Below, piece by piece: positions 5,011-42,160 of a stretch of DNA of 64,000 nt. A program made the position numbers and the translations under genes. Position 1 is the stretch's first letter; every line of letters begins with the position of its first letter. Under the pieces are notes generated by a model. The model saw nothing but the letters and a program-made list of their open reading frames with translations, ran no database searches and was not told the DNA's origin. Source of the stretch: Chloroflexota bacterium. Its GTDB lineage: Bacteria > Chloroflexota > Anaerolineae > Anaerolineales > UBA4823. The DNA is taken from the NCBI GenBank assembly GCA_012516075.1, contig JAAYXE010000180.1, positions 1-64,000 of the forward strand, read 5' to 3'.

Positions 5011-5035
5011 GGTCAACTCCATTCGACAGCGATAC

Positions 5036-8192: not shown

Positions 8193-8255
8193 TGCAGAAC
8201 CATAGGTGAGAATAACGGGCCGGATGTATCTGGATCCGGATCGAGAAGGTGTGCA

Positions 8256-20763: not shown

Positions 20764-20964
20764 TTAATATTCGGTAACAGTAATTGCGCCCTCAGGGCAG
20801 CTCGCTTCACAGGAGAGGCAGCCGATGCAGTCGTTGGGGTCGCCGGTATACATGGCGATCTTCTTACCGTCCTCCTCAACGAGCGACAGCCCTTCCACAG
20901 AGCAGTTCTCCACACAGTCGCCACAGCCCTGGCAAAGGTCAGTGTCCACGGTTACGATATACAT
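20764..20964 (-). CDS. 2[4Fe-4S] ferredoxin
   Basis: This 66-residue protein has two clusters' worth of cysteines: CQGCGDCVENC near residues 11-21 and CIGCLSCEASCP near 46-57, the classic bacterial dicluster arrangement. It should be a small cytoplasmic electron carrier. A strong GGAGGT precedes the ATG, and its stop is immediately followed by the start of the CbiA-family gene. In dsr clusters such ferredoxins can pass electrons to or from sulfite reductase or radical SAM enzymes; which partner it serves here is not shown. Confidence 0.9.
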   Translation of the reverse strand: MYIVTVDTDLCQGCGDCVENCSVEGLSLVEEDGKKIAMYTGDPNDCIGCLSCEASCPEGAITVTEY

Positions 20965-21077: not shown

Positions 21078-21455
21078 CTAAAATGTAAGGACCAGATCGG
21101 CATCCAATCCCGCAGTGATGAGATAGTTCGGGCCGACCAGGTTATCGACCTCGTCGATCAAATCATCGGCGGTCATGTCGTTCATTTTCATCGCGGCATC
21201 GCAGACATTCAGGCTCACGCCTGAAGCAACGGCACGCTCCAGGAAGCTGCGCACCGTGCGCCCGCCTTCTGTGGGGCAGATCTGCTCGGCCACGCCCTGC
21301 TTGACGAGTAGTGCGCCGTGCAGGATGAAACATATGCTCACCTCTGCCCCCAGCCGGGCGGCTTTTTCCGCAAAGAAGAACGGTGCCGAGCAGCGCTCCG
21401 GGGCTTCGGGGCCGTGCGTGGCAACAATCAATACTTTCTTACCTTTCGGGTCCAT
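21078..21455 (-). CDS. DsrE/DsrF-family protein
   Basis: The 125-residue protein has the DsrE-like fold signature: KKVLIVATHGPEAPERCSAPFFFAEKAARLGAEV at the start, a long central helix, and a conserved cysteine in LNVCDAAMKMNDM near residue 84. DsrE family proteins carry persulfides or act as subunits near the membrane complexes of sulfur metabolism. It is a single copy, not a DsrEFH trio, so it is not evidence of sulfur oxidation. It starts directly after the stop of the second HdrD-like gene, indicating co-expression with that membrane module. Confidence 0.78.
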   Translation of the reverse strand: MDPKGKKVLIVATHGPEAPERCSAPFFFAEKAARLGAEVSICFILHGALLVKQGVAEQICPTEGGRTVRSFLERAVASGVSLNVCDAAMKMNDMTADDLIDEVDNLVGPNYLITAGLDADLVLTF

Positions 21456-21456: not shown

Positions 21457-22782
21457 TTATTGCTTCTTCCACACGATCGCCGCTGAAGTCAGCTCGCTGA
21501 GGTTCTGGATCTTTACATCGAGCTTGTAGTGGCGTTTGATTTCATCCAGCTGGTCCAGGCAGTTGTGGCAGGAGGTGGCCACGATTTTGGCGCCGGTGGC
21601 TGCGATCTGATCGGCTTTTGCCTTTGCCGCTGCCATGCGCTCTTTGGCGAAGTCGGTCATCGAAAGCATGCCGCCCCCGCCGCCGCAGCAGTAGTTTTCG
21701 ACGCCGTGCGGGGTCATCTCAACAAAGTCGGTGCAGACATGGCGCAGCACGTAGCGCGGCTCATCGACAATGCCGCCGTTCCTGGCCTGGTTGCAGGGGT
21801 CATGGAAGGTAACCCGCTGGCTGTTCACGGTGGGATCCAGCTCGAAGCGCTTTTCGTAAATGTACTGCGCCTGCAGTTCGACAAAGCTCATCACCCGGAA
21901 CGGATAGCCGTGACCGACCCAGTTCTCGCCTTCCCAGCGCTGGGAGCGGTAGCCGTGACCACATTCCGCCATCACGAGCACATCGGCGCGCAGATGGTTG
22001 ACGGCTCTCTCCAGGTTCTGGGCGAGCTTCTTTGCAGCGGCGTCATCGCCGTTGAAGAGGGCGTAGTTGGTGGCGTCCCAGCTCTCAGTGCTCAGTGTCC
22101 AGTTCTCGCCGGCGGCGTTGAAAATCTTTGCGGCTGCCTGAAGCAGGTAAGGGAAGTACTTCACTTCGCGCGGGTTCAGGGTGTATACAACCCGGGCGCC
22201 TTTCTTGTCGAGGGGAATTTTAACGCTGGGGTCATCCAGCTCGGCCTGCAGCTCTTCTTCCATCCACTCGACGGTCTCCACGAAATCTTCCGTGGTGACG
22301 CCCATGTTGTTGCCCGTCTCCAGGTGTACGTTGACGGTCGCTTTCAGCCCTTCGGGGGTCATGTCCATGGCGGTGAGCATAGCGCGTGCCGTGCGCATGA
22401 TCAGGCGGGTGTCCACACCCATGGGGCAGTTGATCACGCAGCGCCCGCACATGGTGCAGCTGCCATAGGCGGTGAGCAGCAGCATCTCCACCATCTCCTG
22501 GTCCAGGTCCGCGGCGGCGATCCAGCCAGGAGCGGATTTGCCCAGCGGGTCCTCCAGGCGGCGGTAAATTTTGCGCAGCTGCTCAGCGCGGAAAGCGGGG
22601 ACGTGTTCCGGTTTGGGGTTGGAAACGTAATAATGGCAGGATTCGGCGCACAGTCCGCAGCGCACGCACACCTCTAATGAGGCCTTGAGCTGGCGGTTCA
22701 TGCGTTTGCGCAGCACTTCCAGCCCGGCAGCCATTTTTTCGGGGGTCAGTTGAAAGCGTTCAGCAGTAAATCGTTCGTCCAT
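21457..22782 (-). CDS. second DsrK/TmcB-like (HdrD family) iron-sulfur protein
   Basis: The 441-residue protein repeats the DsrK plan. It has a first [4Fe-4S] motif CVRCGLCAESC (Cys39, 42, 45, 49), a second CTMCGRCVINCP near residue 120, and a C-terminal CCG domain (DPCNQAR, YCCGGGGG, SCHNC) able to bind the noncubane cluster of heterodisulfide reductase HdrD. It is a clear paralogue of the dsrK product encoded at 31.5-32.9 kb but belongs to a different module, being paired with the cytochrome b-like gene 7 bp upstream. TmcB of the Tmc complex is the nearest named analogue. GAGGT lies before the ATG. Confidence 0.88.
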   Translation of the reverse strand: MDERFTAERFQLTPEKMAAGLEVLRKRMNRQLKASLEVCVRCGLCAESCHYYVSNPKPEHVPAFRAEQLRKIYRRLEDPLGKSAPGWIAAADLDQEMVEMLLLTAYGSCTMCGRCVINCPMGVDTRLIMRTARAMLTAMDMTPEGLKATVNVHLETGNNMGVTTEDFVETVEWMEEELQAELDDPSVKIPLDKKGARVVYTLNPREVKYFPYLLQAAAKIFNAAGENWTLSTESWDATNYALFNGDDAAAKKLAQNLERAVNHLRADVLVMAECGHGYRSQRWEGENWVGHGYPFRVMSFVELQAQYIYEKRFELDPTVNSQRVTFHDPCNQARNGGIVDEPRYVLRHVCTDFVEMTPHGVENYCCGGGGGMLSMTDFAKERMAAAKAKADQIAATGAKIVATSCHNCLDQLDEIKRHYKLDVKIQNLSELTSAAIVWKKQ

Positions 22783-22789
22783 GGATACC

Positions 22790-23431
22790 TCACTCCGCGT
22801 ATTTGCTGCGAGACTGTCCGATCACACCGCGGTGTCCAAAATGAGCGCCGAAAAAGAATTTCGAGTAGAAGAAATACACGCAGTGACGGATTTTGCTGAG
22901 TGGGATGTACGCGCCCATGAACGCCGTCACCAGGTAGAAGAAGGGCAGCGCGGCAGGCGCAAGCAGACTGACAAAAGCCCCGGTGATAAACAGGGAGCAG
23001 ACGAAAACCGAGAAATAATCGTCCGGGATGCTCAGGGCACGTTCGTTGGCGCCGTGCAGGCGAATGGCAATTCCGGCGAAGCCAGCCAGTGCGCCGGCCC
23101 CGGTGACCAGCACCAGAACGACCTTCAGAGCCTGATGAAACTGGTCGATCCACGGGCTGGCAAAGAGCACGCCAAATGCCGTGAAGATACCGACATGGAA
23201 CAGGATACCCCGGATGTACAGTAACCAGTGCAGGCGGGTGCTTTCCTTTTCCCAGGGCGCCATACCCAGCGTGAAGGCGTAAAGGATCCCGCGCCCGGCC
23301 CTGCCGCGCTCGCGCGAAAGGTCCTTTTTAAAGGGGCGGTTCATGATGTCACCGAGCCGCATGAGGATGCCGATCAACCCCAGAACCAGGCCGGCAGCGG
23401 CGATCCATCGAGTGGTAACAATCCAATCCAT
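22790..23431 (-). CDS. cytochrome b-type membrane subunit (TmcC/DsrM-like)
   Basis: The 213-residue protein has about five membrane helices and histidines within them (for example RLHWLLYIRGILFHVG and the C-terminal KIRHCVYFF), as in NarI/DsrM-like b-type cytochromes that exchange electrons with menaquinone. The start at 23431 is preceded by AAGGAG; an in-frame reading to 23497 adds unlikely sequence. Seven bases separate it from the HdrD-like gene downstream, so the pair forms a DsrMK-like quinone/Fe-S module. Which haem ligands are used cannot be settled from sequence alone. Confidence 0.82.
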   Translation of the reverse strand: MDWIVTTRWIAAAGLVLGLIGILMRLGDIMNRPFKKDLSRERGRAGRGILYAFTLGMAPWEKESTRLHWLLYIRGILFHVGIFTAFGVLFASPWIDQFHQALKVVLVLVTGAGALAGFAGIAIRLHGANERALSIPDDYFSVFVCSLFITGAFVSLLAPAALPFFYLVTAFMGAYIPLSKIRHCVYFFYSKFFFGAHFGHRGVIGQSRSKYAE

Positions 23432-23506
23432 TAACCTTTCTCCTTGTTCAAGTATCCTGTGGAGTCTGACGCTTCTGTAACAAAGGCCAGACTCCACAGG
23501 GAAGGT

Positions 23507-25660
23507 TTATTTCACAGAAATGCTTTCGGCAGCCTCAAATGCCTGCTGCACAGCAAGCTGGACGTATTCGGCGCCCAGGTTTTCGACTTCTTGAGCCAGC
23601 GCAAGCGAGGCTTCCGCCGGGGCAAGGGTATCGCCGCGTACGCGGGCGGCCAGGGCCATTCCCAGAGCACGGTCAAACAACTCCGGATCACCCGTCGCGC
23701 GTGCCAGCGCTGCCAGCACCGGGGCTTTATCGGCCTCGCTGTCCAGTTCATCCAGCACCAGCATGGCTTTCTGCGGGTCGCTGTCGGCCAGCGCCAGGGC
23801 CAGGTCTTTCAGCGGGGATGTCTCGCTCAACTTCACGCCCTCCCCAGCCTGAACGACCTGCCAGGCAGCCTCATAACTGCCCAGAGCGATCAGCGCGCTC
23901 ACTCGCTCGTAAGGCGATTCGATCTGCAGGGCCAGGTTTTCATCGCCTCTGCTGACGGCGATACGGCGCAGGGCGCGGTCGCGCAGCGCGGGGACCTGGA
24001 TCTGCGCGGCGCGGTCTGCGTCGCCCCAGGAAGCGGCGATGGCTTCCTGCGCCCGGGCCCGCTCATAGGGATCTGTAATGCGCAGCGCTTCCTGCCAGGC
24101 GGCCTCGTACTGCCCGGTGTAGAGCAGGGCAGCTGTGCGCGCCCCGGGATAAGCAGCGCTGATCGAAGCGGCAGCATCGGGGTCTCCGGCAGCGGCAGCC
24201 AGATCAGCCAGGGCGTATGCCTGAGCAGCCCCTTCCACACCCTGCAGGACTTCCCGCGCCTGGTTGAAATAGCTCTTATCTTTCGCGGCCGCACCGATCT
24301 CGCGCAGCAGGCGGGCCTGCTGAACCGGGTCGCTAACATCTGCGGCGGCTTCCGCAGCTTCTTGGAACAAGCCCGGGTCGCCGGCGATCACAGCGATCTC
24401 ACGCAGGCCCCAGGAGCGCAGCGCCGGGTCTTTCACCAGGGAAAGGACTTCCAGGCCTTTCTCCACGTCGATCTCGGCCCAGACGACGGCCAGCGCGCGC
24501 CGGTCCAGATCGCGGTACGGCTGCTCTTCCGCCTGGCTCTGGATCAGGGCTTTCTCGAGCAGCGCGACAGCCTGCTGTGGATCGACGTCCAGCCATTCAT
24601 AGGCAGCCAGGCGCAGGCCCCAGGTGCGGGCAACCGCTGCTTTGAGCTCAGAAGAGAGCAGGTTCGCCTTCTCCAGGCTGACATCCGAACCAGTGCTGAT
24701 CTCATAGGCCGCGGCCGCAGCGCCCCATACCGCAGCGCTGTTCTGATAGGTGTAATCGGCCATCGCCAGGCTGGATTCCAGCGCCCGTGCGGCAAAGTCG
24801 GGGTCATCCGAGGCGCGAAGGGCACCGATGCGGGCGCTTTCCCAGATGCGCGCCTGGGCGCGTCCCTCTGTGTCTGCGGCGCGCCCGCCTTCATCCAGCA
24901 CGGCCTGCACAGCCTGCTCCTCTTCCGTAGAGACGTCCTCCACAGATGGTACCCGGAAGATCGGCATGGCGAAAAGGGCGAAGATGACCAGTAGACTCAG
25001 GATGGCCGGCGCGCTGACCAGACCGCGCAGCTCACGGGTGGAATACTTCACCATCTTATGGGTGTTGATGAAGCCCCAGGCCAGGGAAGCGACCACCACA
25101 AGGGTCACGGCGATGCCGCCGATCAGCACCCAGCGGCTCTGCTGGCTGTCGACCAGCCCGCTGTACTGGTTATAGACTTTGCCCAGGCTGTAGCGCACGA
25201 CCTGAGCCTGCGATGCAAAGGCCTCCTGGCTGTCCACCGGCAGATCGAGCAGGCGGTTGTAACCCTGCAGCGTGGAGGCATAGCGGGTGTTTACCTTTGC
25301 GACTGCCTCTGAAGCTGGCAGCCCGGCGGCGATCCGGTCGATGCCCAGCAGCACCCGCTCGGTGTAATACACTTCTTCGTGGATGTTATTGATGGCCGGG
25401 CAGGGGTTCACGGCCTCGCGGTCGATGGTACCTGTCCAGCGAGCGGCGTCCGCCAGGCGTTCATCGCCGGGCGTGTGGCATTCAACACAGTAGTTCCCCG
25501 GGGGCAGGGCTGCCCCGGGCCCGGATGCGGCAGCCGAACCGGTTACGGGGCCGGCAGCCTGCACCGTCTGTCCCTGTGCCAGCGCCATTAGGCCAAGGCT
25601 GGCAAATAATCCGACCACCACGATAAATGAGAGGCTAAAGAGTGCTTTCGATAATTTCAT
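23507..25660 (-). CDS. membrane c-type cytochrome with long helical-repeat tail
   Basis: This 717-residue protein is unlike any named subunit I recognise. It has an N-terminal hydrophobic segment (about 8-28) that may be a signal anchor, one haem-binding CVECH (residues 58-62), then a charged helical part. Two membrane helices follow at about 177-198 and 216-234. The last 470 residues are Ala/Leu-rich helical repeats of TPR/HEAT style, with DP/GDP turns recurring every 25-35 residues. If the first segment is a signal anchor, the haem is outside and the repeat tail, after two more helices, is also outside. It lies between the NrfD-like module and the second DsrMK-like pair, so it may be a scaffold. 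Confidence 0.75.
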   Translation of the reverse strand: MKLSKALFSLSFIVVVGLFASLGLMALAQGQTVQAAGPVTGSAAASGPGAALPPGNYCVECHTPGDERLADAARWTGTIDREAVNPCPAINNIHEEVYYTERVLLGIDRIAAGLPASEAVAKVNTRYASTLQGYNRLLDLPVDSQEAFASQAQVVRYSLGKVYNQYSGLVDSQQSRWVLIGGIAVTLVVVASLAWGFINTHKMVKYSTRELRGLVSAPAILSLLVIFALFAMPIFRVPSVEDVSTEEEQAVQAVLDEGGRAADTEGRAQARIWESARIGALRASDDPDFAARALESSLAMADYTYQNSAAVWGAAAAAYEISTGSDVSLEKANLLSSELKAAVARTWGLRLAAYEWLDVDPQQAVALLEKALIQSQAEEQPYRDLDRRALAVVWAEIDVEKGLEVLSLVKDPALRSWGLREIAVIAGDPGLFQEAAEAAADVSDPVQQARLLREIGAAAKDKSYFNQAREVLQGVEGAAQAYALADLAAAAGDPDAAASISAAYPGARTAALLYTGQYEAAWQEALRITDPYERARAQEAIAASWGDADRAAQIQVPALRDRALRRIAVSRGDENLALQIESPYERVSALIALGSYEAAWQVVQAGEGVKLSETSPLKDLALALADSDPQKAMLVLDELDSEADKAPVLAALARATGDPELFDRALGMALAARVRGDTLAPAEASLALAQEVENLGAEYVQLAVQQAFEAAESISVK

Positions 25661-25671
25661 CATCCGGCCTC

Positions 25672-25812
25672 TTATTTTCCTTTTCCGCCGTTGACAATCC
25701 AGCGGGTGAGGAAGTAGTAGATAACGCATGCCAGACCAAGGACGGTGACGACAACAACTCCGCCCGGCCCCGGGTTATTGAAGAAAGCGTAGACCAGGTT
25801 ACCGATATCCAT
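25672..25812 (-). CDS. 46-residue single-helix membrane protein
   Basis: A short reading frame begins MDIGNLVYAFFNNP and ends WIVNGGKGK, with one clear membrane helix from about residue 17 to 41. AGAAGGAG precedes the ATG at a good distance. It lies 12 bp after the NrfD-like stop and 11 bp before the large cytochrome gene, exactly where a gene would be expected in this tight run. Small one-helix subunits are common in quinone/cytochrome complexes. No family is recognised, and the function is inferred only from position. Confidence 0.72.
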   Translation of the reverse strand: MDIGNLVYAFFNNPGPGGVVVVTVLGLACVIYYFLTRWIVNGGKGK

Positions 25813-25824
25813 TCCAGGCTCCTT

Positions 25825-27147
25825 CTATCCCTGCGTGGTCGCCGGCTGGTGCGAGAGCTCACCGGTGGGCAGTTCTTCCGCCGTTTCCCAGAGGGGGATG
25901 ATCGGGAAGAAGCGCGTGAACACCGTGTAGAGCAGGGCCATACCGGCGAAGAGTGCTACGGTGATCATGATCTCGACAATGGAGGGGAAATATTTCGCAT
26001 GAGCCATCTCGTGGAACAGCCGGGGGCTGACCTGGGTCGGGACCAGGACGATGTAGCGCTCGATCCACATGCCGATGTTGATCAGCACGCTGGCGAACAC
26101 CATCCAGCCGATGTTATTCTTGCCCTTGAAGATGAAGATGAGCAGCGGGAGGATGAACACCAGCACCACCATGCCCCAGAAGAGCAGCGCGTAATCGCCG
26201 GTGAACTTGTCCTGCACCACGTGCATCTCTTCAGTCATGTTCCCGTAGCCGGCGGTCAGGTATTCGGCGATGATCATGTAAATCCAGCCCAGGGTAAAGG
26301 TGATCAACAGCTTGCGCAGGGAGTTGAACAACTTGACCGGCAGGGCCTTCTCCAGGTTGTACACCTTGCGCAGGATGGAGAGCACGATCACCACCGCAGC
26401 GGTCCCTGACAGGATGGCGCCCAGCAGGAAGAATGGACCGATCAGCGCCGTGTGCCAGCCAGGCTGGACGGTCATGCCGAACACCCACGAGACCACGGTG
26501 TGAACGGTGACCACCAGCATGGTCATAAAGATCGCCATGCCGTCCAGCACGCGCTCCAGGCGGTGGAATTGCTCCGGAGTGCCCTGCCAGCCGAGGGCCA
26601 GGACCCTGTACATCTTCTGCTGCCACTGGGGCACGTCCGTCAGACGATCGCGGCACAGGGCGATGTCGGGGAGCAGGGACAGGTAGAAGAAGACCATGCT
26701 GGAGAGCAGGTACAGACCGACGGCCGTGAAGTCCCAGAGCAGGGGCGACTGGTAGCGACCGAAGAAGAGCACATTGAAAATGCGCTCCGGGCGGCCCATG
26801 TCGGCCAGGATGGCGGCCACACCGAACGGCAGGCTGAACAGCGTGATGGCTTCCGCGGCGCGGGTGAGGGGGGCGCGCCAGCTCTGCCCGGCCACACGCA
26901 GGATCGCGGAGATGAAGGTGCCGGAGTGTGCCAGGCCGATGAAGAACACAAAGTTGGTGAGGTATGTTGCCCAGTACACCGGCCGGTTCAGACCCGTCAC
27001 TCCCAGGCCCTCAATGAACTGATAAACCCACAGGGCGATGCCCGTCAGGAGCAGGCCGGCGAGGATCGACCACAGGATGCGGTCACCGGTGGTCACCCGG
27101 TGGATGGGCGCGAGGATGATTTTCTCGTGTTTATTTTCCGGATGCAT
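25825..27147 (-). CDS. NrfD/PsrC-family membrane subunit (QrcD/ActC/DsrP-like)
   Basis: The 440-residue protein has about ten membrane helices and the NrfD/PsrC family pattern, including the NFVFFIGLAHSGTFISAILR helix and a GRPERIFNVLFFGR loop typical of QrcD and ActC. These subunits exchange electrons with menaquinone at the outer side and may move protons. It directly follows the four-cluster ferredoxin and molybdopterin-family genes, so a BCD-type complex like Qrc (or the O/P part of DsrMKJOP) is likely. The long form (about 440 residues, two bundle halves) is closer to QrcD/ActC than to the short NrfD. Confidence 0.88.
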   Translation of the reverse strand: MHPENKHEKIILAPIHRVTTGDRILWSILAGLLLTGIALWVYQFIEGLGVTGLNRPVYWATYLTNFVFFIGLAHSGTFISAILRVAGQSWRAPLTRAAEAITLFSLPFGVAAILADMGRPERIFNVLFFGRYQSPLLWDFTAVGLYLLSSMVFFYLSLLPDIALCRDRLTDVPQWQQKMYRVLALGWQGTPEQFHRLERVLDGMAIFMTMLVVTVHTVVSWVFGMTVQPGWHTALIGPFFLLGAILSGTAAVVIVLSILRKVYNLEKALPVKLFNSLRKLLITFTLGWIYMIIAEYLTAGYGNMTEEMHVVQDKFTGDYALLFWGMVVLVFILPLLIFIFKGKNNIGWMVFASVLINIGMWIERYIVLVPTQVSPRLFHEMAHAKYFPSIVEIMITVALFAGMALLYTVFTRFFPIIPLWETAEELPTGELSHQPATTQG

Positions 27148-27171
27148 AATTTCTACCTTTCGACCGCCGTA

Positions 27172-27858
27172 TTAACCCTGCTTGAGATAGTAAACCTTGG
27201 GCTGCGTGCCGAGCTCTTCCATCAAACGATACGCGCGCGGGCTGCTCGCCAGCTCCGATACCAGGCTGTTCGGATCGTCCAGATCTCCGAAATAGCGGGC
27301 GTGAGCGGGGCAGGTCTGCACACAGGCGGGGATGTAGTCCGTAGCCTGGAAAGCGCGCCCCTCGGCTTCGGCCTTCTCGCGCGCTTTGCGCAGCCGGTGC
27401 GCGCAGAAGGTGCACTTCTCCACCACACCGACCGGGCGGGGAGCCACTTCGGGATCGGGGTTGAGGTGATCTTTGAGCTCCTCAGGCCACTGGGGAGCGA
27501 ACCAGTTGAAGTAGCGCACGGTATACGGGCAGGCCACCGTGCAGAAGCGGCAGCCGATGCAGCGATCGTAATCGATCAGCACGATCCCTTCTTCGTTCTT
27601 GTACGTAGCCTGTACCGGGCAGACCTTGATGCAGGCTGGTTCGTCGCAGTGCATGCAGGGGCGAGGGATGAGCGTCACATTGACATTGGGATACTCGCCC
27701 TCGATAAAGGGGAGCACTTCGTTCCACAGAATCGTCCTGCCGGCTGCAGCCTGATCGGGGCCGGCCACCGGTGTATTGTTCTCCATGCGGCAGGCTGCCG
27801 TGCAGCTCTGACAGGCAGAACATTTATCCAGATCGATTACCATTCCCCAACGGGGCAT
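27172..27858 (-). CDS. four-cluster ferredoxin subunit (QrcC/DsrO-like)
   Basis: The 228-residue protein has four cysteine groups: CSACQSCTAAC near the N-terminus, CMHCDEPACIKVCP, CIGCRFCTVACP and a split CTFC...CVQTCP, as in PsrB/NrfC/DsrO-type electron-transfer subunits. It has no signal peptide, unlike DsrO, so export together with the Tat-signal-bearing molybdopterin-family partner is likely, as for QrcC. The ATG at 27858 is chosen over the GTG three bases upstream because GGAGG is better spaced. It lies 10 bp from the neighbouring gene upstream and 25 bp from the NrfD-like gene downstream. Confidence 0.9.
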   Translation of the reverse strand: MPRWGMVIDLDKCSACQSCTAACRMENNTPVAGPDQAAAGRTILWNEVLPFIEGEYPNVNVTLIPRPCMHCDEPACIKVCPVQATYKNEEGIVLIDYDRCIGCRFCTVACPYTVRYFNWFAPQWPEELKDHLNPDPEVAPRPVGVVEKCTFCAHRLRKAREKAEAEGRAFQATDYIPACVQTCPAHARYFGDLDDPNSLVSELASSPRAYRLMEELGTQPKVYYLKQG

Positions 27859-27868
27859 CACATACCTC

Positions 27869-30262
27869 CTACGCTTTGTAAATCCGGACCCGGGTTGGGT
27901 TCGTCACAGCTGCGCCTGTCAGAGGTTCCGTGGCGCTGGTGATCAACTGCTGCGGATTGGCGCCGATAACCTGATTGGCAGCTGATCCGCGTCCCCAGCT
28001 TATCAGGGTGCGGTGACCCTGGCCGGGCGGAAGATAGATGGCGTTGGGCCAGATACCAGGATACAGGCGCACCGTGGCCTGCACGCGGCCGGTCTCCGAC
28101 TCTACCCACACCAGATCTCCGTTCTGCAGCCCCAGGCGTTTTCCGGCCTGCGGGTTGATCTCCACCCAGCTCGTCCAGGAGGCGCGGCTCTGCAGGCCGT
28201 AGCACTCCTGCAGGGTGGGGATGATGCCCTGCCAGTTTGGAGAAGAGGTGATGATCGCCTGCGTGACCAGCAGGAAGGGGTACTCGCCTGCCAGCTCATC
28301 GCCGGTCTGCCCCAGCGCAGCCGGGAGCTCGAAGTGCGGCAGGCAGGCCAGATCGGCGAGCTGCTGTTCGGCCGGGCCGGTGGGACGGTGGAGGATGTTG
28401 AAGAGCTCGCGCGAGAACAGGTCGAAGCGCCCGTCTTTCGGAGCGTGCAGCCGGTCACGGCCGACCACCTGCCCCCAGGCGGGGCTGGCTGGTTCAGCGT
28501 TGAAGTACACCATCTCCGACCAGCAGCCGTTCTCGACGAACTTATTCCAGTCCATATCGATCGCCGACAGGCGGTAGCGCACCAGCTCGGCATACGTATC
28601 GAAGGGCAGGGCGGCGGACAGCGGGCCGCCGACCAGCCGGGCGAGCTGCAGCAGCACGTCGCCGGGATCGCGCGTGTCGTACAGCGGCTCGACGACCGGC
28701 TGGCGCAGGGAGACGCCCGCATAACCCGTCCCGCTCAGGTAGTCATCGCCCCATACCTCCAGGAAAGTGCTGGCTGGCAGAATCAGGTCGGCGTGGGCAG
28801 CGGTCTCATCCAGCGTGGAGGCGAAGCTGACCACGAAGGGGACCTTCATCAGCGCCTGCACGAAGCGCCCGCTGTCGGGGATTTCATAAACGGGGTTGGC
28901 GTTGAGGATGAAGAGAGCGTTGATCGGGTAAGGTTTATCCTGGAGGATGCGGCTGGCAACGTTCTGATACACGGACGTGGCCAGGGGCAGTTCTCGGGTT
29001 CCTGCGCCATCCAGTCTGGGCTGGCTCAAACCGGCCTGAGCTGCAGCGTCGAAGTCCACCGCGGGCCAGTCGGCCACGGTCGGGAAGCGCTGCACCAGCA
29101 CGCCCCCCTTAACGTCGATGGAGCCGACCAGGGCGTTGAGAGCGTGTACAGCCATGGCGGAGTACAGGCTGTTGCCGTAGCTCATCTCGCCGGGTTCCTC
29201 GGGCAGGACCGCCACCGCCGGGCGGTTCGTGGCGAACTCTCCGGCCAGGCGGGCAATGTCCTCCGTGGCGACCCCGGTGATGCGCGACACCCGCTCAAGC
29301 GTGTAGTGCTGCAGGACCATATTCTTGAAGCCCATGTGGGTTCGCCCGTCTTCGTCTTCGAAATCTTCGAAGCCGAAGCAGAATTTTTCGACGAACTCCT
29401 GGTCGTAAAGCTGGCTGTTGATGATGACGTTTGCCATCCCCAGGGCCAGCGCACCGTAGGTGCCCGGGCGGATGGGGATCCATTCATCGGCTTTGATACC
29501 GGTTAAGGAAAGACGGGGGTGAGCAACCACCAGTTTGCCGCGCTGCGGCCGGCCGCGGCGCATGAAGGCCAGCGTACCCAGGTTGCCCATCACGCTGCGG
29601 CTGGATTCGAGCAGATTGCCGCCGAAGGCGAACACGTAGCTGGCGTTGTTCAGATCGTAAACCGGCAGTCCGTTGATCCCCTGGGTGACCAGCATCGCCA
29701 GGCGCGCCGGTCCCTCTCCCAGGCTGTCGCGGGAGATGACATTCGGCGAGCCGTAATACGCCATAAAGCGGTTGACCGTGGAGCGCATCTGGCCGCGCAG
29801 CTCTCCATGCATCAGTGCGACGGTGTGCGGCTGGCCGATCTGGCGCAGCTCGCGCAGCTTTTTGGCGACGATCTCCAGGGCTTCGTCCCACGAGATTTCT
29901 TTCCAGTCACCTCCACCACGCGGCCCGGTCTGGATGCGGGGGCGTTGAATGCGCTCGGGGCTGTAGAGGACCTCCAGCGCTGTCTGCCCGCGCAGGCAGC
30001 AGGCGCCCTGGTTGAGGGGGTGCAGGGCATTGCCTTCCACTTTGACCGCTTTACCATTGACCACACGGACTTCCAGACCGCAGCCAGAGGGACAGAGCGC
30101 ACAGGTGGTTTTGACCAGTTTTTCTTCCATACCGGCGCTGGCAGAGGCCGGGGAGACCGCCTGGGGCAGGGTATCCGCCTGCCGTGCGGCCAGGAACGCT
30201 GCCCCAGCTGCGGCTGCAGTTCCACCTACTTTGATGAAATCACGGCGAGAAATTTTACTCAT
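27869..30262 (-). CDS. molybdopterin-oxidoreductase-family subunit (QrcB/ActB-like)
   Basis: The 797-residue protein starts with a Tat signal (SRRDFIKVGG), so it acts outside the cytoplasmic membrane. It has the N-terminal [4Fe-4S] motif (Cys54, 57, 61 and 88/89) and the full-length DMSO-reductase-family fold through a C-terminal cofactor-binding domain (DLVWVESETGRVQATVRLYPG). At the place where active members carry Cys, Sec or Ser for molybdenum, the sequence reads SRDSLGEG (177-184) with no clear ligand; this is as in QrcB and ActB, which lost the metal. With the next two genes it forms a menaquinone-reacting BCD module. Confidence 0.87.
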   Translation of the reverse strand: MSKISRRDFIKVGGTAAAAGAAFLAARQADTLPQAVSPASASAGMEEKLVKTTCALCPSGCGLEVRVVNGKAVKVEGNALHPLNQGACCLRGQTALEVLYSPERIQRPRIQTGPRGGGDWKEISWDEALEIVAKKLRELRQIGQPHTVALMHGELRGQMRSTVNRFMAYYGSPNVISRDSLGEGPARLAMLVTQGINGLPVYDLNNASYVFAFGGNLLESSRSVMGNLGTLAFMRRGRPQRGKLVVAHPRLSLTGIKADEWIPIRPGTYGALALGMANVIINSQLYDQEFVEKFCFGFEDFEDEDGRTHMGFKNMVLQHYTLERVSRITGVATEDIARLAGEFATNRPAVAVLPEEPGEMSYGNSLYSAMAVHALNALVGSIDVKGGVLVQRFPTVADWPAVDFDAAAQAGLSQPRLDGAGTRELPLATSVYQNVASRILQDKPYPINALFILNANPVYEIPDSGRFVQALMKVPFVVSFASTLDETAAHADLILPASTFLEVWGDDYLSGTGYAGVSLRQPVVEPLYDTRDPGDVLLQLARLVGGPLSAALPFDTYAELVRYRLSAIDMDWNKFVENGCWSEMVYFNAEPASPAWGQVVGRDRLHAPKDGRFDLFSRELFNILHRPTGPAEQQLADLACLPHFELPAALGQTGDELAGEYPFLLVTQAIITSSPNWQGIIPTLQECYGLQSRASWTSWVEINPQAGKRLGLQNGDLVWVESETGRVQATVRLYPGIWPNAIYLPPGQGHRTLISWGRGSAANQVIGANPQQLITSATEPLTGAAVTNPTRVRIYKA

Positions 30263-30285
30263 GCACTTATCTCCGCTTGGGCGGG

Positions 30286-30663
30286 TCAGTTCCCGGGATA
30301 CTCCTGCAGCCAGCGCTGCAGGGCTTCCAGCTCTACCGGCTCAACACTCAGCGGTGGCGCTTCTGGCAGAGGGTCCGGGGAGGCCTTGAACTGGCTTTCA
30401 TCGACGTCCAGGTGCACCCCGAGAATATCCAGCGATTGAATCAGATCCGGCACGGTGCCCGGTTTGCTGCTGGCCACCCAGGCCTGCCCGCGCGGGCCGC
30501 GCGAGCCGCCGCCCGACGGGCTGATGTGGCAGGTAGCGCAGGGCTCACCGGTCTGGGCGGAATATTCCGGGAGGGCGCTGGCCGTCGTCACCGGATGCAG
30601 CACAGCCAGCAGGATGGCCAGCCCGGCGATCAGGGTCAGGAGCGTACAGATAGTTTTCTTCAT
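30286..30663 (-). CDS. exported monohaem c-type cytochrome
   Basis: The 125-residue product has a cleavable-looking signal peptide (residues 1-30, MKKTICTLLT then a hydrophobic run ending TASA) and one CATCH motif (Cys42, Cys45, His46) followed by a glycine-rich RGPRGQAW segment. No methionine occurs after the haem motif, so a His/Met axial pair is unlikely; His near residue 88 may serve. The ATG at 30663 is favoured by GAGAGGA upstream and sits directly behind the Rieske stop (TGAGATG). It probably carries electrons between the Rieske protein and other haem subunits. Confidence 0.82.
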   Translation of the reverse strand: MKKTICTLLTLIAGLAILLAVLHPVTTASALPEYSAQTGEPCATCHISPSGGGSRGPRGQAWVASSKPGTVPDLIQSLDILGVHLDVDESQFKASPDPLPEAPPLSVEPVELEALQRWLQEYPGN

Positions 30664-30664
30664 C

Positions 30665-31117
30665 TCAGGCTTCCTCTCCAACGATCACGGTCTCACCTTC
30701 CACGCGCACCGGGAACTGCTCCAGGGGTACCGGCGGCGGACCGCCGGTGACCTCGCCAAACTGATCAAAGCGGCCGTCATGGCAGGGGCAGTAAAACGAT
30801 TTGTCGGCTTCCTGCCACTGCACCAGGCAGCCCAGATGCGTACAGACCATCGAGAAGGCGCGAATGCTCTCCGGCGTGCGCACGACGATGGTCTGCGTGC
30901 CGCCGTAGGTGATGGTCTTTGTGCCGCCCACAGGCAGTTCGGAGAGCGGGAAGGTAACCGGGGCCGCTTCCTGAGATGTCGTCTGGGCAGGGAATAGTTT
31001 TGTCTGGAGCAGCGTGCCGGCCCATGCGGCGCCTACGGCACCGGCTGCAAACTGGATAAACTGGCGCCGGGAAAGGAAGTTGGAAGGGCCGGCGGGTGTT
31101 GTTACAGTTTCACTCAT
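30665..31117 (-). CDS. Rieske [2Fe-2S] protein with Tat signal
   Basis: The 150-residue protein begins with a Tat-type signal anchor (SRRQFIQFAAGAVGAAWAG, residues 16-34) and has a complete Rieske site: CTHLGC (Cys92, His94) and CPCHDG (Cys110-Cys112, His113). The extra disulfide cysteines Cys97 and Cys112 are present. Rieske proteins of this kind take electrons from quinol in bc-type complexes, yet no di-haem cytochrome b of the bc type is encoded in the run. GGAGTG precedes the ATG. The gene lies between the DsrJ-like and monohaem cytochrome genes, so it seems to belong to the dsr membrane assembly. Confidence 0.93.
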   Translation of the reverse strand: MSETVTTPAGPSNFLSRRQFIQFAAGAVGAAWAGTLLQTKLFPAQTTSQEAAPVTFPLSELPVGGTKTITYGGTQTIVVRTPESIRAFSMVCTHLGCLVQWQEADKSFYCPCHDGRFDQFGEVTGGPPPVPLEQFPVRVEGETVIVGEEA

Positions 31118-31141
31118 AACATCACTCCATCGAGGATGATT

Positions 31142-31471
31142 TCATTCGCTGGCTGAAATCCGCTCGACCTCAGGGATCTCTTCAATCGGATCAACTCCAA
31201 CGTAACCGTGGCAGTTGTTGCAGGATGTTTCGGGTACGTGGCAGTACAGGCAGTCGGCTTTCTCAAAGTCACCGCGGTTGACCGCATCAAAATGATGGGT
31301 CTGCCACCAGTCCAGCGGGCTGTGATACTCGGGTGCTGTGAACTGCGGGTCCAACCGTACGGCCAGCGGTCCGGTGCCGTCTTTCTCCGGCTTCTGTACA
31401 TAGGTGGGGTAGAAAGCGACGACCAGGATCAGGATGCCGGCCGCGATGATCAGAAGAGCAACTTTACGCAT
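31142..31471 (-). CDS. dsrJ: DsrJ-like dihaem cytochrome c
   Basis: The 109-residue protein has an N-terminal membrane anchor (residues 4-23) and two haem motifs, CLYCH (74-78) and CNNCH (84-88), with further histidines at 50, 59 and 60 as possible axial ligands. It follows dsrK after 25 bp with a strong AAGGAGAT site, which is the usual place of dsrJ. Typical DsrJ has three haems, one with unusual His/Cys ligation; here only two are visible, so the name is given by position and general design. It should face the outside of the membrane. Confidence 0.7.
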   Translation of the reverse strand: MRKVALLIIAAGILILVVAFYPTYVQKPEKDGTGPLAVRLDPQFTAPEYHSPLDWWQTHHFDAVNRGDFEKADCLYCHVPETSCNNCHGYVGVDPIEEIPEVERISASE

Positions 31472-31496
31472 GGTGATCTCCTTCGACTCCGTTGGC

Positions 31497-32945
31497 CTAC
31501 ATCTTGAGCGCGTTGGTCAGGAGCTGCAGCACACCGCCAACCTGTACCGGAACATCCCAGTAACCCATCACTTCGGGAAGCTGCGCTTTGCAGATGGCAC
31601 AGATGGTCGCCAGGTAGTTCGCTTTAACATGCTTCACGGCCATGGCGCGCGGCTTACCTCCAGCCATGCGGATGGGCATAATCTCATCCGTCAGCAGACC
31701 GCCGCCGCCCCCGCAGCAGAAGGTTTTCTCGCGGATGGTGTCGGCAGGCATCTCCACAAAGTGGTTGCAGGCGGCCCGGATGATCTCGCGCGGTTCTTCA
31801 AGGAGCTGGCCAGCGCGGGCCGTGTTGCAGGGGTCGTGATAGGTGACGATCAGATCGTCGTTAGCGCTCTTATCGATCTTGCCCTCGAAGGCGCCCTTTT
31901 TCATCATATCCACGACGAACTGGCTGATGTGATAGGGGTACGGCGGGTCGAACATATCCATTGGGCCGTGCAGGGTGGGCGGCAGGACGGCCGCGCGCCA
32001 GGCATGCCCGCACTCGCCCCAGATGATGGTCTTGACGCCCAGCATGCGGGCGGCGTCGACGATGCGCTTGTTGACCTGCTTGAGGTTTTTGTAGTTCAGG
32101 AACAGGCCGAAGTTACCGCCTTCGTTGCAGTAGGTGCTGGTGGTCCAGCGGATGCCCAGGAAGTGGAAGAGCTTCCCGTAGGCGATCATGGTGTCCACAT
32201 TGGCAAAGTTATCGGCCGAGGGCGGCACCAGCAGGATATCGGCGCCTTCGTCATCCACCGGGAAGCGAATGGGCAGCCCCGTTTCCTCCTGCACATCTTC
32301 TTCGAGGAATTCGCAGTTGTCCTTCCAGGCAGCGCTGGGGATGCCCAGGTTGTTGCCGGTCTCATACACCTTCGCGACCACCTCGGTCACGTACTTGGTG
32401 GCCACACCAATGCTGCTCATGATCTCGCGGGCAGCCATGGTGATCTCGGCGGTGTCGATACCGTAAGGGCAGAAGACGGAGCAGCGGCGGCACTCTGAAC
32501 ACTGGTAGAAATAGGTGTACCATTTCTGCAGCATTTCCTCGTCGAAGTCTGCGGCATCGTTCAGCTGCGGAAAGGCGCGCCCACCGGGGGTGAAGTAGCG
32601 CCGGTACACCTTGCGCATCAGCTCGGCGCGTGCGACGGGGAAGTTCTGCGGATCGCCGGTGCCCAGGAAGAACTGGCATTTGTCGGTGCAGGCGCCGCAG
32701 CGCACGCAGATGTCCATGTAGACGCGCAGAGCTTTGTTTTTCTCCAGCAGCTCGCCGAATTTTTCGATCGCTTTCTCCTGCCAGTTGGCTACACGTTCCG
32801 GGGGCAGCCCGATGGCTGTAAAGTCCTTCTCTTTCCCCGGCCAGCAGTGCACGCCGGCGGTGGCATGCTCGCGCAGCTCAGGTGCGGTGACGATGCCGTC
32901 GCGGGCAGGATCTTTAATGATCGGGGTTTCGTCAAACTTGGCCAT
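31497..32945 (-). CDS. dsrK: DsrK, HdrD-like subunit of the Dsr membrane complex
   Basis: DsrK is the cytoplasmic Fe-S catalytic subunit thought to reduce the DsrC trisulfide. The 482-residue protein has CVRCGACTDKC (Cys80, 83, 86, 90), CSECRRCSVFCPYGID near 160, and the C-terminal CCG domain: YHDPCNTAR, FCCGGGGG and CAIC. It starts 32 bp after the dsrM stop with GAGAGG upstream. The N-terminal 60 residues precede the first cluster and are typical of DsrK. A second, shorter paralogue lies ten genes further on, at 21.5 kb. Confidence 0.93.
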   Translation of the reverse strand: MAKFDETPIIKDPARDGIVTAPELREHATAGVHCWPGKEKDFTAIGLPPERVANWQEKAIEKFGELLEKNKALRVYMDICVRCGACTDKCQFFLGTGDPQNFPVARAELMRKVYRRYFTPGGRAFPQLNDAADFDEEMLQKWYTYFYQCSECRRCSVFCPYGIDTAEITMAAREIMSSIGVATKYVTEVVAKVYETGNNLGIPSAAWKDNCEFLEEDVQEETGLPIRFPVDDEGADILLVPPSADNFANVDTMIAYGKLFHFLGIRWTTSTYCNEGGNFGLFLNYKNLKQVNKRIVDAARMLGVKTIIWGECGHAWRAAVLPPTLHGPMDMFDPPYPYHISQFVVDMMKKGAFEGKIDKSANDDLIVTYHDPCNTARAGQLLEEPREIIRAACNHFVEMPADTIREKTFCCGGGGGLLTDEIMPIRMAGGKPRAMAVKHVKANYLATICAICKAQLPEVMGYWDVPVQVGGVLQLLTNALKM

Positions 32946-32977
32946 ACTACCTCTCGTCCATCAGATAACCGGGACGC

Positions 32978-33730
32978 TCAGCTCTCCGGAGTATCCCAGG
33001 GGTTGACATAGCGTTTGCCTGCCTCCTGCACCTGGAAGGGCTGGTTGCGGGCCGGGCTGAAGAAGATCCCACCGGCGTGCAGCAGCTTGCTGAAGGGGAA
33101 GTAAATCATCAGCAAGAGCACCAGCATGAAATGGAGCAGGAAGAGCGGGTGGTTGGGCGGTGGGGTGGGGTGCAGCGTGAGCAGCCCGATCACAAAGGCC
33201 TTGACGTCTACCAGGTTGACGTGAGTCCAGTAGGAGACGATGATCCCGGTCGCGGCGATGCCGCCCAGCAGGGCCAGGGCAAAATAGTCGGGCAGGTTGG
33301 AGACGTACAGCGTGCGCGGCAGGGCCAGCCGGCGCCAGAACAGGTACAGGATGGTAATCCCGAAAATATAGCCGATGGTGAGGGCAACCGGCTGCAGCTT
33401 GAGGACCAGTGAAGGGACGGGGTAGGTGAAATAGCGCAGGTGGCGGAACAGGACCAGCGCCAGGGTGACATGGAACAGCCATGACCCCGCCCACAGGAAT
33501 TTATCGGCCTTCCACAGGCTGGGGAAGATGAGCACGTCTTTGGCGACACGGACAGCCGCCCCCGCGTTCGATGTAGGCGCCGGCGTAACGGCTCCGGGCA
33601 AGGGCTGTGGGGTGCGCAGATACTCCCAGAGCCGGCTGAGCAGGCCAAAAACGAAGACAATGATCGCGAAGTAAGACAGCCCGATGATAACCAGTGAAAC
33701 CAGAGTCCAGAGCAGGTCAGTTTCTTGCAT
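32978..33730 (-). CDS. dsrM: DsrM, cytochrome b subunit of the Dsr membrane complex
   Basis: The 250-residue protein has about six membrane helices and a NarI-like core with histidines in helices (SWLFHVTLALVLFRHLRYF, FLLHFMLVLLL, KLLHAGG), as needed for b haems that oxidise menaquinol. The ATG at 33730 (AAGAG upstream) is preferred to a GTG at 33748. It lies directly before dsrK, so the two form the conserved DsrMK core. A 298-bp gap with secondary structure separates it from dsrC upstream. Confidence 0.9.
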   Translation of the reverse strand: MQETDLLWTLVSLVIIGLSYFAIIVFVFGLLSRLWEYLRTPQPLPGAVTPAPTSNAGAAVRVAKDVLIFPSLWKADKFLWAGSWLFHVTLALVLFRHLRYFTYPVPSLVLKLQPVALTIGYIFGITILYLFWRRLALPRTLYVSNLPDYFALALLGGIAATGIIVSYWTHVNLVDVKAFVIGLLTLHPTPPPNHPLFLLHFMLVLLLMIYFPFSKLLHAGGIFFSPARNQPFQVQEAGKRYVNPWDTPES

Positions 33731-34028
33731 AACGTTTCTCTTCAGCACACCACTTCTTCTGGCAGTTCCCTGCCGCCGATCGCGCTGAGAACTACCGTGG
33801 ACGATGTATCCAAACTGGCAACATTAAGGAGCGGGTTCTCCCGGTTTTACACGGGCCTGATTTTCCCGTATAACGTACGAGGAGCCCCCGCTCCTTCTGG
33901 TCAAAAGGCAGTGAATGAGACGGGGCGCTAAGCCTGGATTTACCAGTGAGAAGCTGTTACAAAGGGAACTTCCTTTGCGTTTATCCTCGCTTCCTGCTCC
34001 ATCCATTCCTTTGACCGGTCCCCTGCCG
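33731..34028 (-). promoter_or_regulatory. structured dsrC-dsrM intergenic region
   Basis: No gene is seen in this 298-bp gap. A 10-bp stem pairs 33826-33835 with 33887-33896 and encloses an inner ACGGG/CCCGT hairpin near 33851-33870. A small 6-bp hairpin lies near 33958-33976, shortly after the dsrC stop. None has a U-tract. They may stabilise or process the mRNA so that dsrC is made in excess over dsrMK, a known feature of dsrC, or hide a promoter for dsrM. Confidence 0.4.
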
Positions 34029-34346
34029 TTACACGCAGCCGGTAGGCTTGGGGAGGCCGGCGATTTTGCAGGCGCCTTTTGCCGGGCCGCTGGGGAACAG
34101 CTCGTAGATGTATTTGAGCTGAAAGCCGGTTTCCTTGCACAGCTTGCGGATCATGGGCGCAATGCCGTACTGCTGGTAGTATTCGCGCAGGTAGTTGATC
34201 ACCTTCCAGTGATCTTCGGTCAATTCATGAACATCCTCGGTCTCAGCGATTGCACGTGCAATTTCTTCATTCCAGCAAGAGGGATCCTGGATGAAGCCAT
34301 CTTCATCAACGTCAATCTCGATTCCCTTTAGGTTAACAATTGGCAT
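34029..34346 (-). CDS. dsrC: DsrC, sulfur-carrier protein of sulfite reduction
   Basis: DsrC carries the sulfite-derived sulfur as a trisulfide between its two C-terminal cysteines, linking DsrAB to the DsrMK membrane complex. The 105-residue protein shows the full family pattern (WNEEIARAIA, LTEDHWKVINYLREYY, IRKLCKETG, LKYIYELFPSGPAKGAC). Both redox cysteines are present: Cys104 is the penultimate residue and Cys93 lies ten residues before it, so it is a true DsrC and not TusE. A perfect GGAGGT precedes the ATG. Confidence 0.97.
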   Translation of the reverse strand: MPIVNLKGIEIDVDEDGFIQDPSCWNEEIARAIAETEDVHELTEDHWKVINYLREYYQQYGIAPMIRKLCKETGFQLKYIYELFPSGPAKGACKIAGLPKPTGCV

Positions 34347-34426: not shown

Positions 34427-34642
34427 TCAGCCGGCGCTTTCAACCAGTTTGATAAAGGTGGCTCCGCCGTACGATGTGAATTCAAGGATCCCCGCGTTGA
34501 CCAGTTCGGTCAGCACTTTCTTGGCAGTGCGGTTGTCAAGGTCAAGGGCCTTGGCCACATCGCGGGAGGTCATCATCTTGTTCTTCGTCTGGAAGAGCTC
34601 AACCACTTTATCCTTCAATTCAGTGCTAATTTCTTCAGCCAT
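34427..34642 (-). CDS. dsrD: DsrD, winged-helix partner of DsrAB
   Basis: The 71-residue protein has a winged-helix pattern (LKDKVVELFQTKNKMMTSRDVAKALDLD, then VLTELVNAGILEF and a short wing). DsrD is known as an activator of DsrAB and is found almost only in organisms that use the pathway reductively, so it is a useful marker of direction. It lies between dsrB and dsrC, as in classic dsrABD clusters, with a ribosome binding site (AAAGGAG) just before the ATG. Confidence 0.93.
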   Translation of the reverse strand: MAEEISTELKDKVVELFQTKNKMMTSRDVAKALDLDNRTAKKVLTELVNAGILEFTSYGGATFIKLVESAG

Positions 34643-34729: not shown

Positions 34730-35788
34730 TTACCACTTGAAGGCTGGGGTTGAGCGGTGAGTCTCCGATGCGAGGGTGAAGTCGTCGATGAGCTGGGCTT
34801 TGAACTCGATGTTGGTCAGCTCGAAGAAGCGTTCCCAACCGATGCGTTCGATCCACTCACCCATGCGCTCGTGCTTGCGGGCGTGGGTTGCCCAGGTTTC
34901 GACGATGTTCTTGACCGCGTCGGTCACTTCTGGCCAGCGCGGCGGGTTGTTGGGCAGGTAAGGGATAACCAGCCGGGAGAATTTCGGTGGAGTGCGGGCG
35001 CTGGAGATCTTGCCGCCGACCCAGATGGATACGCCGTCGCCGATGGGGTCTGCGAGGGGCATGCCGGGGCACATGGTGTAGCAGTTGCCGCAGTACATGC
35101 AGCGATCCTCATTGACGATCAGCGACTTGTTCTTGGGATCCGGGCGGATAGCGCCGGTGGGGCAGGCTGCGATCACGTTGGGGACTTCGCATTTGGTGCG
35201 GACGGTCTCGTGATCGATCTTCGGCGGCTTGCGGTGGATGCCCAGGATAGCAACGTCGGAGCAGTGCACAGCGCCGCACATGTTCAGACAGCAGGCCAGG
35301 GAGATGCGGCAGTAGGCGGGGAGCTTCATATCGACGAAATATTCGTAGAGCTCATCCATAACCGCCTTAACGATGCCGGATGCATCCGTCGCGGGGGTGT
35401 GGCAGTGGATCCAGCCCTGGGTGTGGACAGGATTGGTGATGGAGTGCCCGGTTCCGCCCACCGGATAGCCGTTGGCCTTCAGGTGCTCGATCAGCGGCTC
35501 AACCTTCGATTTGTCGGAGACCAGGAATTCCAGGTTGTGGCGGCTGGTGAAGCGTACGTAGCCGTCGCAGTACTGATCAGCGATAGCGCAGATATCGCGG
35601 ATCCAGTCCGTGCTCACCAGGCGGCTGGAACCCACACGCACCGTGTAGATTTCATCGCCCGATTCGGCAACATGCCGCAGCAGTCCGGGTTTCACCCTTT
35701 CGTGATACTTCCACTTGCCGTAGTTTTTCGTGATGACGGGCGGGAGCATTTCCCTGTAATCGGGAGGCCCAAAATCTGTCCTTGACAT
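34730..35788 (-). CDS. dsrB: dissimilatory sulfite reductase beta subunit
   Basis: DsrB forms the alpha2beta2 enzyme with DsrA and holds the catalytic sirohaem. The 352-residue protein shows [12 protein letters not shown] (Cys129), [17 protein letters not shown] (Cys166/167, 171, 176) for the sirohaem-linked [4Fe-4S] cluster, and an inserted ferredoxin domain with CPTGAI and [12 protein letters not shown]. The N-terminal TDFGPPDY and a C-terminal WERFFELT region are as usual. Its ATG overlaps the dsrA stop (TAATG), so translation is coupled, which suits a 1:1 complex. Confidence 0.97.
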
Positions 35789-36972: not shown

Positions 36973-37021
36973 GTGAAGTACCTCCATACAAGGATTTGAT
37001 CAGGTTATTCAGGTCTCAGCG

Positions 37022-42061: not shown

Positions 42062-42160
42062 CAATAATCATCTCCATCATTTTCAGAATACCCGCAGCGG
42101 TGTATTGGTTATGAAAATCTGGACCTGCTGCGGACGGTAATTTGCAATGCCAGCTCGCGC

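Follow-up and report, generated by a model that had tools for sequence, protein, structure and literature searches.

What takes over the outer half of DsrMKJOP in a genome in which dsrM, dsrK and dsrJ are followed by genes that recall quite different quinone complexes? How DsrMKJOP conserves energy, and which role its outer half (J, O and P) has, are long-standing questions in sulfate and sulfite respiration. We analysed a stretch of 64,000 nucleotides, here called the window (JAAYXE010000180.1, positions 1-64,000), from a Chloroflexota metagenome-assembled genome (MAG) with 6% contamination. Downstream of dsrABDC it carries an unusual block which extends from dsrM to an HmcF/TmcB-like gene (21457-33748, minus strand). 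The original prediction considered this block as two DsrMK-like modules around a core like Qrc and alternative complex III, joined by Rieske and haem subunits. We consider it rather probable that the block is a lineage-specific form of DsrMKJOP of Chloroflexota, mainly Anaerolineae, for sulfite respiration, in which a Qrc-like module occupies the place of DsrO and DsrP. It would probably operate as a menaquinol:DsrC oxidoreductase.

The block is part of a co-oriented minus-strand run from 38197 down to about 16777, in the order YeiH, dsrA, dsrB, dsrD, dsrC, dsrM, dsrK, two-haem dsrJ, Rieske protein, monohaem cytochrome c, MopB protein, ferredoxin subunit, NrfD protein, 46-residue helix, haem/solenoid protein, cytochrome b, HdrD-like protein, DsrE, ferredoxin, CobB/DsrN-like amidase and hemA. 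All named genes are open frames on this one strand, which bears out the unbroken run claimed at the outset. From dsrM to dsrE the intergenic gaps measure -17 to 75 bp; the 280 bp between dsrC and dsrM are the sole larger gap nearby. Promoter and terminator scans of the locus were uninformative.

The first part of the run is conventional. DsrA (35788..36987; TIGR02064, 572 bits, cut-off 393), DsrB (34730..35788; TIGR02066, 533 bits, cut-off 341) and DsrK (31497..32945; NF045796, 526 bits, cut-off 400; two [4Fe-4S] clusters and a CCG domain) exceed their NCBIfam equivalog cut-offs; DsrD (34427..34642; PF08679, 33.4 bits, cut-off 24.2) exceeds that of Pfam. DsrC (34029..34346; PF04358) has both C-terminal cysteines (CKIAGLPKPTGCV, an ending kept in 14 loci); the pair is intact in all loci, and so is the CCG motif of DsrK. 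DsrM (32978..33748, alternative ATG start at 33730; PF02665), a di-haem cytochrome b, reaches 159 bits with NF038037, below the cut-off of 300; its haem-ligand histidines 93, 103, 206 and 224 are present in 15/15 sequences. The next protein (31142..31471) has a membrane anchor and two haem motifs, CLYCH and CNNCH. The profile NF038038 gives a C-terminal match at a marginal E of 0.016. Because the canonical three-haem DsrJ of other Chloroflexota classes aligns with it (hhalign 97%, over CLxCH...CxxCHxYxGV), and the third CxxCH is missing, the alignment identifies the protein as DsrJ minus its third haem, a refinement of the DsrJ-like assignment made originally. In genome G216 a two-haem DsrJ (L114, 5560-6354) is extended at the C-terminus by a domain whose CxxxCH motif looks like another haem site.

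Up to this point the block is like DsrMKJOP: dsrM, dsrK and dsrJ stand in order beside dsrABDC, the predicted partner is DsrC, and the NrfD protein has the Y/D/S/D site of DsrP1. It is unlike DsrMKJOP in the two instead of three haems of DsrJ, in the replacement of DsrO and DsrP by non-orthologous QrcC-like and NrfD proteins, and in the added Rieske protein, monohaem cytochrome, MopB protein, small helix and haem-solenoid protein.

Where did the replacing proteins come from? About two dozen dsr-free Anaerolineae genomes hold related MopB proteins (42-50% identity) in clusters with a tetrahaem lipoprotein, a dihaem cytochrome, an iron-sulfur (FeS) subunit, NrfD and a TorD/ferredoxin-like protein, in some cases also with the 46 aa helix. 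The best profile for these MopBs is QrcB, at 350-364 bits (cut-off 440). In the tree the dsr-linked MopBs form a single clade with 100/100 support, sister to the dsr-free ones. The FeS subunit of the window is 55-63% identical to those of dsr-free complexes compared with 37-39% to canonical DsrO of G530 and G537; for NrfD the values are 69-77% to some dsr-free complexes and 22-24% to DsrP of the same two genomes. The identities are higher to the dsr-free complexes; therefore the part in the place of DsrOP stems from a Qrc-like complex, and by these comparisons the entire MopB-FeS-NrfD-helix block is derived from the Qrc-like complex of dsr-free Anaerolineae. In these dsr-free complexes (L105-L121) the Mo-ligand loop of MopB has a conserved 'SLN'; they are perhaps quinol:cytochrome c oxidoreductases.

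A different picture emerges in G475, from another class. A single tight operon comprises dsrABDC-MK-J, Rieske, cytochrome b6, subunit IV, the haem/solenoid protein in two genes, a second cytochrome b and a second HdrD-like protein. Cytochrome b6 and subunit IV (PF00033, 3.9e-53; PF00032, 5.4e-22; PEWY motif in subunit IV) are located between Rieske and solenoid genes (L131, G475:C36, 8217-12001); of the two genes for the solenoid protein, one encodes the haem part and the other the repeat part. The nearest MopB of this genome shares 33% identity and lies on the opposite strand at a distance of about 20 kb. G530 and G537 possess canonical dsrMKJOP with a three-haem DsrJ. Thus the slot behind DsrJ is filled in three ways, by DsrOP, by a cytochrome b module or by a Qrc-like module, whereas DsrMKJ is constant; the Rieske and solenoid proteins are retained with both the cytochrome b and the Qrc-like filling. 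Because the same slot is filled so differently, the DsrOP half was exchanged on at least one occasion and probably on two.

Is this arrangement a peculiarity of one assembly? The same order exists in two further genera of the window's GTDB family at 40-85% identity. A MopB alignment scan over 84,980 species genomes yielded 22 Chloroflexota loci with 51-69% MopB identity, previously seen genomes counted in, among them 'Candidatus Desulfolinea nitratireducens' from the Black Sea and genomes from Lake Tanganyika. Below these, identity falls sharply to at most 38%, in other phyla and with neither dsr nor Rieske neighbours. Every locus that is long enough has dsrABDC-MK-J-Rieske-c-MopB-FeS-NrfD-solenoid (window, G011, G028, L018, L019, L022, L023, L026, L027, L030, L036, L037). 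L124 (G184) has the same order, except that MopB and FeS are separated by a toxin-antitoxin pair and that a monohaem gene was not detected in this locus; the toxin-antitoxin-like pair (4241-5016) is inserted on the opposite strand. In total the order from dsrM to the solenoid gene is conserved in 13 genomes, the window and 12 others, and shorter contigs agree. Because it recurs in 12 further genomes, the gene order is far beyond chance. The prediction that these parts are combined in a single cluster tied to dsrABDC is supported, and the condition named to refute it, that the dsrMKJ part and the BCD part always lie apart, does not hold. A lone apparent separation of the dsrMKJ part from the MopB-FeS-NrfD part is seen in CP070811.1, a 'closed' Anaerolineales chromosome with the dsr cluster in three places (L021, L097, L099). 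Each break coincides with a run of about 100 N, and the halves of the solenoid gene overlap by 631 bp at 96% identity; a true split is ruled out and the breaks are scaffolding errors.

The dsr-type MopB also co-occurs with DsrA. In a class sample of 396 genomes DsrA was present in 17; 16 of these 17 have the dsr-type MopB, versus 1 of the 379 DsrA-negative genomes (Fisher p about 2e-26, kinship ignored). In G216, which has DsrA and no such MopB, DsrA is divergent (39%) and the cluster is a minimal dsrABC-MK-J. The reverse case, MopB without DsrA, is confined to G243; this genome is incomplete, and the contig with its MopB (coordinates as L017) starts at dsrK.

The MopB protein (27869..30262) has a Tat signal, three MopB domains above the Pfam cut-offs and resembles QrcB, PhsA and ArrA. 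PhsA is the best profile (335 bits), QrcB gives 322 bits (cut-off 440), and every score is below cut-off. All four [4Fe-4S] cysteines are retained. The column of the PsrA Mo-ligand cysteine is G, D, A or deleted in dsr-type MopBs, and the loop is not conserved among them; the PxGQGH motif is partly retained. Because the usual Mo-ligand residue is gone and the cluster cysteines are kept, MopB is likely an electron relay without catalytic Mo. The ferredoxin subunit (27172..27861), with four clusters and no signal of its own, scores higher as QrcC (NF041782, 275 bits, cut-off 400) than as DsrO (190 bits, cut-off 200), below both cut-offs. A MopB without the usual Mo ligand, a four-cluster ferredoxin and a ten-helix NrfD subunit are shared with QrcABCD menaquinone reductase. 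Unlike it, the window has no hexahaem QrcA, its NrfD is not QrcD-like, and the module shares an operon with DsrMKJ and the Rieske and solenoid proteins. In fact none of the genes of the run encodes a multihaem cytochrome of the QrcA, HmcA/TmcA or pentahaem ActA type.

The NrfD-family membrane subunit (25825..27147; PF03916 above the Pfam cut-off) gives 109 bits with DsrP (cut-off 350) and 27 bits with QrcD, so that a plain QrcD is ruled out. It aligns with ActC (6f0k_C) at 1.2e-65 and possesses 13/13 N-side and 4/6 P-side residues of the ActC channel, as tabulated in PMC8076601, the gate arginine (R364) included; the DsrP type has lysine at the gate. Its quinone-site residues Y62, D116, S134 and D139 correspond to Y52, D106, S124 and D129 of DsrP1 with an offset of exactly ten, and depart from ActC at ActC His139 and Asp253, the second site residue being His in ActC. 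Channel and quinone-site residues are common to all dsr-linked NrfDs and to nearly all sister NrfDs. The protein is predicted to combine an ActC-like proton channel with a DsrP1-like quinone site. Two NrfD kinds (68-77% versus 42-49% identity) occur among otherwise alike dsr clusters, and both also occur in dsr-free complexes; this suggests that the NrfD gene was exchanged between the two complex types. The 46-residue single-helix membrane protein (25672..25812) has orthologues with a conserved MDIG..AFF.., dsr-free sister complexes included. The likeness to alternative complex III (ActABCDEF) thus resides in NrfD, which is nearest to ActC with the full N-side channel, and in the monohaem cytochrome and small helix, which recall ActE and ActD; it ends where ActB is a MopB-FeS fusion, encoded by separate genes in the window, and where neither ActA nor a second NrfD (ActF) is found in the run. 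The predicted core is better read as a Qrc-like replacement of DsrOP, in which a QrcBC-like pair meets an ActC-like channel and a DsrP-like quinone site, than as a sum of four complexes.

The Rieske and haem subunits of the original prediction are the Rieske protein, the two-haem DsrJ, the monohaem cytochrome and one haem on the solenoid protein. The Rieske [2Fe-2S] protein (30665..31117; PF00355, 54.5 bits, above the Pfam cut-off) has a Tat signal and a box II, CPCHDGRFD, without Ser and Tyr; the Ser is gone in all orthologues and Tyr is replaced by Phe in most. In Rieske proteins of bc1 and b6f complexes these two residues raise the redox potential. Apart from the Rieske protein itself, the likeness to Rieske/cytochrome b complexes lies in the slot of G475; the run of the window is unlike them as it lacks a cytochrome b with a Qo motif. 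The monohaem cytochrome c (30286..30681, GEPCATCHISPSGGG) has its CxxCH at residue 48 and is kept in relatives. The membrane-anchored monohaem protein with a C-terminal TPR-like alpha-solenoid (23507..25663; CxxCH, AF2 pLDDT 85) had no specific match in fold and PDB searches, only generic helical-repeat matches with TM about 0.2. It is present in 2 of 400 genomes of the phylum, both dsr-positive, and is confined to the dsr neighbourhood so far in the genomes sampled.

Of the two DsrMK-like modules claimed, the first is the dsrM-dsrK pair described above. The second pair is HmcF/TmcB- and TmcC/HmcE-like, not true DsrMK. The cytochrome b (22790..23431, with a Met start within the frame listed originally) gives a weak 23.5 bits as TmcC and has orthologues at 47-69% identity; its iron-sulfur partner (21457..22782, CCG domain intact) scores 332 bits as HmcF, 315 as TmcB and 273 as DsrK, all below cut-off. 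Hmc has the gene order hmcBCDEF. In the window FeS, NrfD, small helix, (haem protein), cytochrome b and HdrD-like genes resemble this order, and the last two score best as TmcC and HmcF/TmcB; unlike Hmc and Tmc, a multihaem HmcA/TmcA is missing from the window, and the HmcF and TmcB scores are far from their cut-offs of 750 and 735. In the window, G011, G028, L018, L020, L023 and L032 the pair comes after the solenoid gene; it stands after hemA in L027 and after a radical SAM gene in L031. L030 and L036 have another DsrMK subfamily close by on the same strand. Near the cluster in L022 and L026 there is just one further DsrK homologue; it is of a different kind, lies on the opposite strand and is at least 9 kb away. 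The second pair is therewith an accessory, looser companion outside the fixed core. In G028 (L013, 17001-18328) the second HdrD-like gene is spread over two frames that overlap, which probably reflects a sequencing error in a low-coverage assembly. A second dsrMK-like pair is also close to the canonical dsrMKJOP of other Chloroflexota classes (L132, L133).

How could such an assembly operate? As in known DsrMKJOP, DsrAB would produce the DsrC trisulfide, which menaquinol would reduce via DsrM and DsrK. In place of DsrO and DsrP, the outer half linked to quinone, stands the module from the Anaerolineae quinone complex, i.e., the QrcB-like relay without the usual Mo ligand, the QrcC-like ferredoxin, the NrfD proton-channel subunit and the small helix. 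This module would be joined to a DsrJ poorer by one haem, the Rieske protein, the monohaem cytochrome and the haem-bearing alpha-solenoid as scaffold. At the outer NrfD site quinone chemistry may be coupled to ion translocation, as in NrfD-family complexes. Electrons may pass from the ferredoxin clusters to the [4Fe-4S] cluster of MopB and on to the Rieske and c-haem proteins, which would communicate with DsrJ and DsrM; the HmcF/TmcB-like pair could provide a second cytoplasmic contact. The terminal acceptor likely is sulfite rather than sulfate: an AprA profile search in the window genome and 17 relatives found none above cut-off, two relatives having sub-threshold AprA-like genes, and since most genomes lack AprA above cut-off sulfite is the likely acceptor, some incompleteness of the MAGs notwithstanding. 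More tentatively, at a likelihood which we put short of even, we propose a supercomplex in which DsrMKJ is wired via a low-potential Rieske protein without cytochrome b and a haem-solenoid scaffold to a quinone module that can be exchanged: Anaerolineae would use NrfD/MopB, another class cytochrome b6/subunit IV, and others DsrOP.

Several points weigh against this interpretation. All genomes are MAGs, and the cytochrome b slot is known from a single genome. The HmcF-like pair is not always adjacent to the core. The PxGQGH motif kept by MopB leaves a loss of the pterin unproven, and one physical complex is proposed here from genes. The closest competitor, possible but clearly less probable, would have the operon encode two complexes, DsrMKJ as a minimal menaquinol:DsrC reductase and, independent of it, a Qrc-like complex equipped with Rieske and c-haems which moves electrons between periplasm and menaquinone; co-transcription would merely balance their amounts. 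The minimal cluster of G216 without the module, the changing place of the second pair, and the fact that MopB-FeS-NrfD-helix stands alone in dsr-free relatives, accompanied by tetrahaem and dihaem cytochromes, agree with it. Yet in complete data the dsr-linked MopB clade never occurs without dsr, the position of DsrO and DsrP immediately behind DsrJ is exactly occupied, and the solenoid protein occurs in dsr genomes only.

Somewhat less likely still is an inward flow, in which periplasmic hydrogenases or formate dehydrogenases feed c-haems and Rieske, from there NrfD and menaquinone, and DsrMK uses the menaquinol. QrcB and QrcC are among the nearest profiles, and Qrc of Desulfovibrio passes electrons inward to menaquinone (PMC8076601). 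This view, however, has to do without the multihaem input subunit QrcA and with the poor similarity to QrcD; moreover, quinol oxidation is indicated by the Rieske protein and, for G475, by the PEWY motif of a cytochrome b.

We regard it as improbable that MopB is a catalytic Psr/Phs/Arr-type molybdoenzyme, so that the operon would supply, besides sulfite reduction, a reductase for sulfur compounds in the periplasm. In its favour, PhsA is the highest-scoring profile, the predicted fold is nearest to ArrA and PsrA (TM about 0.8), and AioA-type enzymes function without a protein ligand to Mo. The lost ligand loop makes an active Psr/Phs-type reductase unlikely nevertheless, and sub-cut-off scores throughout argue in the same direction; a TorD-like chaperone gene was noted in the sister clusters only, and not in those with dsr. 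An assembly or annotation artefact, for which the contaminated MAG and the divided cluster of CP070811.1 could be invoked, is refuted because the synteny recurs in 12 independent assemblies from different habitats, and is next to inconceivable.

Returning to the favoured form of DsrMKJOP, how does it relate to what is described? In cable bacteria a dsrOhPh-tetrahaem locus holds DsrOP-like proteins apart from dsrMKJ (PMC13047784). There, too, the OP half is detachable; the proteins are others, the locus is distal, and the dsrMKJ operon contains neither MopB nor Rieske protein. Chloroflexota dsr genes have been described before (PMC10591310; PMC10504309, Caldilineae J123; PMC8359478), and for DEH-C11 PMC4959651 reports dsrABDNCMK without JOP. 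The accessible portions of these four papers make no mention of a Rieske, MopB or NrfD module beside dsrMK. No published description of such a locus was found in the literature, covered mostly as open-access main texts without supplements. To this extent the original statement that no described complex has this set holds, and the locus is a previously undescribed DsrMKJOP variant.

These observations suggest that a major respiratory complex can have its energy-conserving half exchanged. Evolution swapped the outer half while DsrMK and DsrC stayed, for an NrfD-channel module in one lineage and for Rieske/cytochrome b in another. This offers a direct comparative test of the duties of the slot, i.e., quinone chemistry, charge translocation and haem contact in the periplasm. 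A monoderm phylum with its own distinct machine for sulfite respiration is added as well. If the proposed supercomplex is real, a Q-cycle module and an NrfD proton-channel module would be interchangeable in one complex.

The remaining genes of the run flank the block. A YeiH-like transporter (37091..38197, PF03601) is the first gene of the cluster and is kept upstream of dsrA in most relatives. Behind the HdrD-like gene follow a DsrE-like protein (21078..21455; PF02635, 46 bits; absent in G028), a small 2[4Fe-4S] ferredoxin (20764..20964), which is a conserved neighbour, and a cobyrinate a,c-diamide synthase homologue (19201..20763; CobB-type equivalog, 445 bits, cut-off 254), DsrN-like and as such a candidate for sirohaem amidation. 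Upstream of the dsr cluster a transaldolase/glucose-6-phosphate isomerase fusion protein is encoded (39191-42064). At 7500-9833 two plus-strand genes resemble, by eye, sirohaem biosynthesis enzymes, which fits the need of DsrAB for sirohaem.

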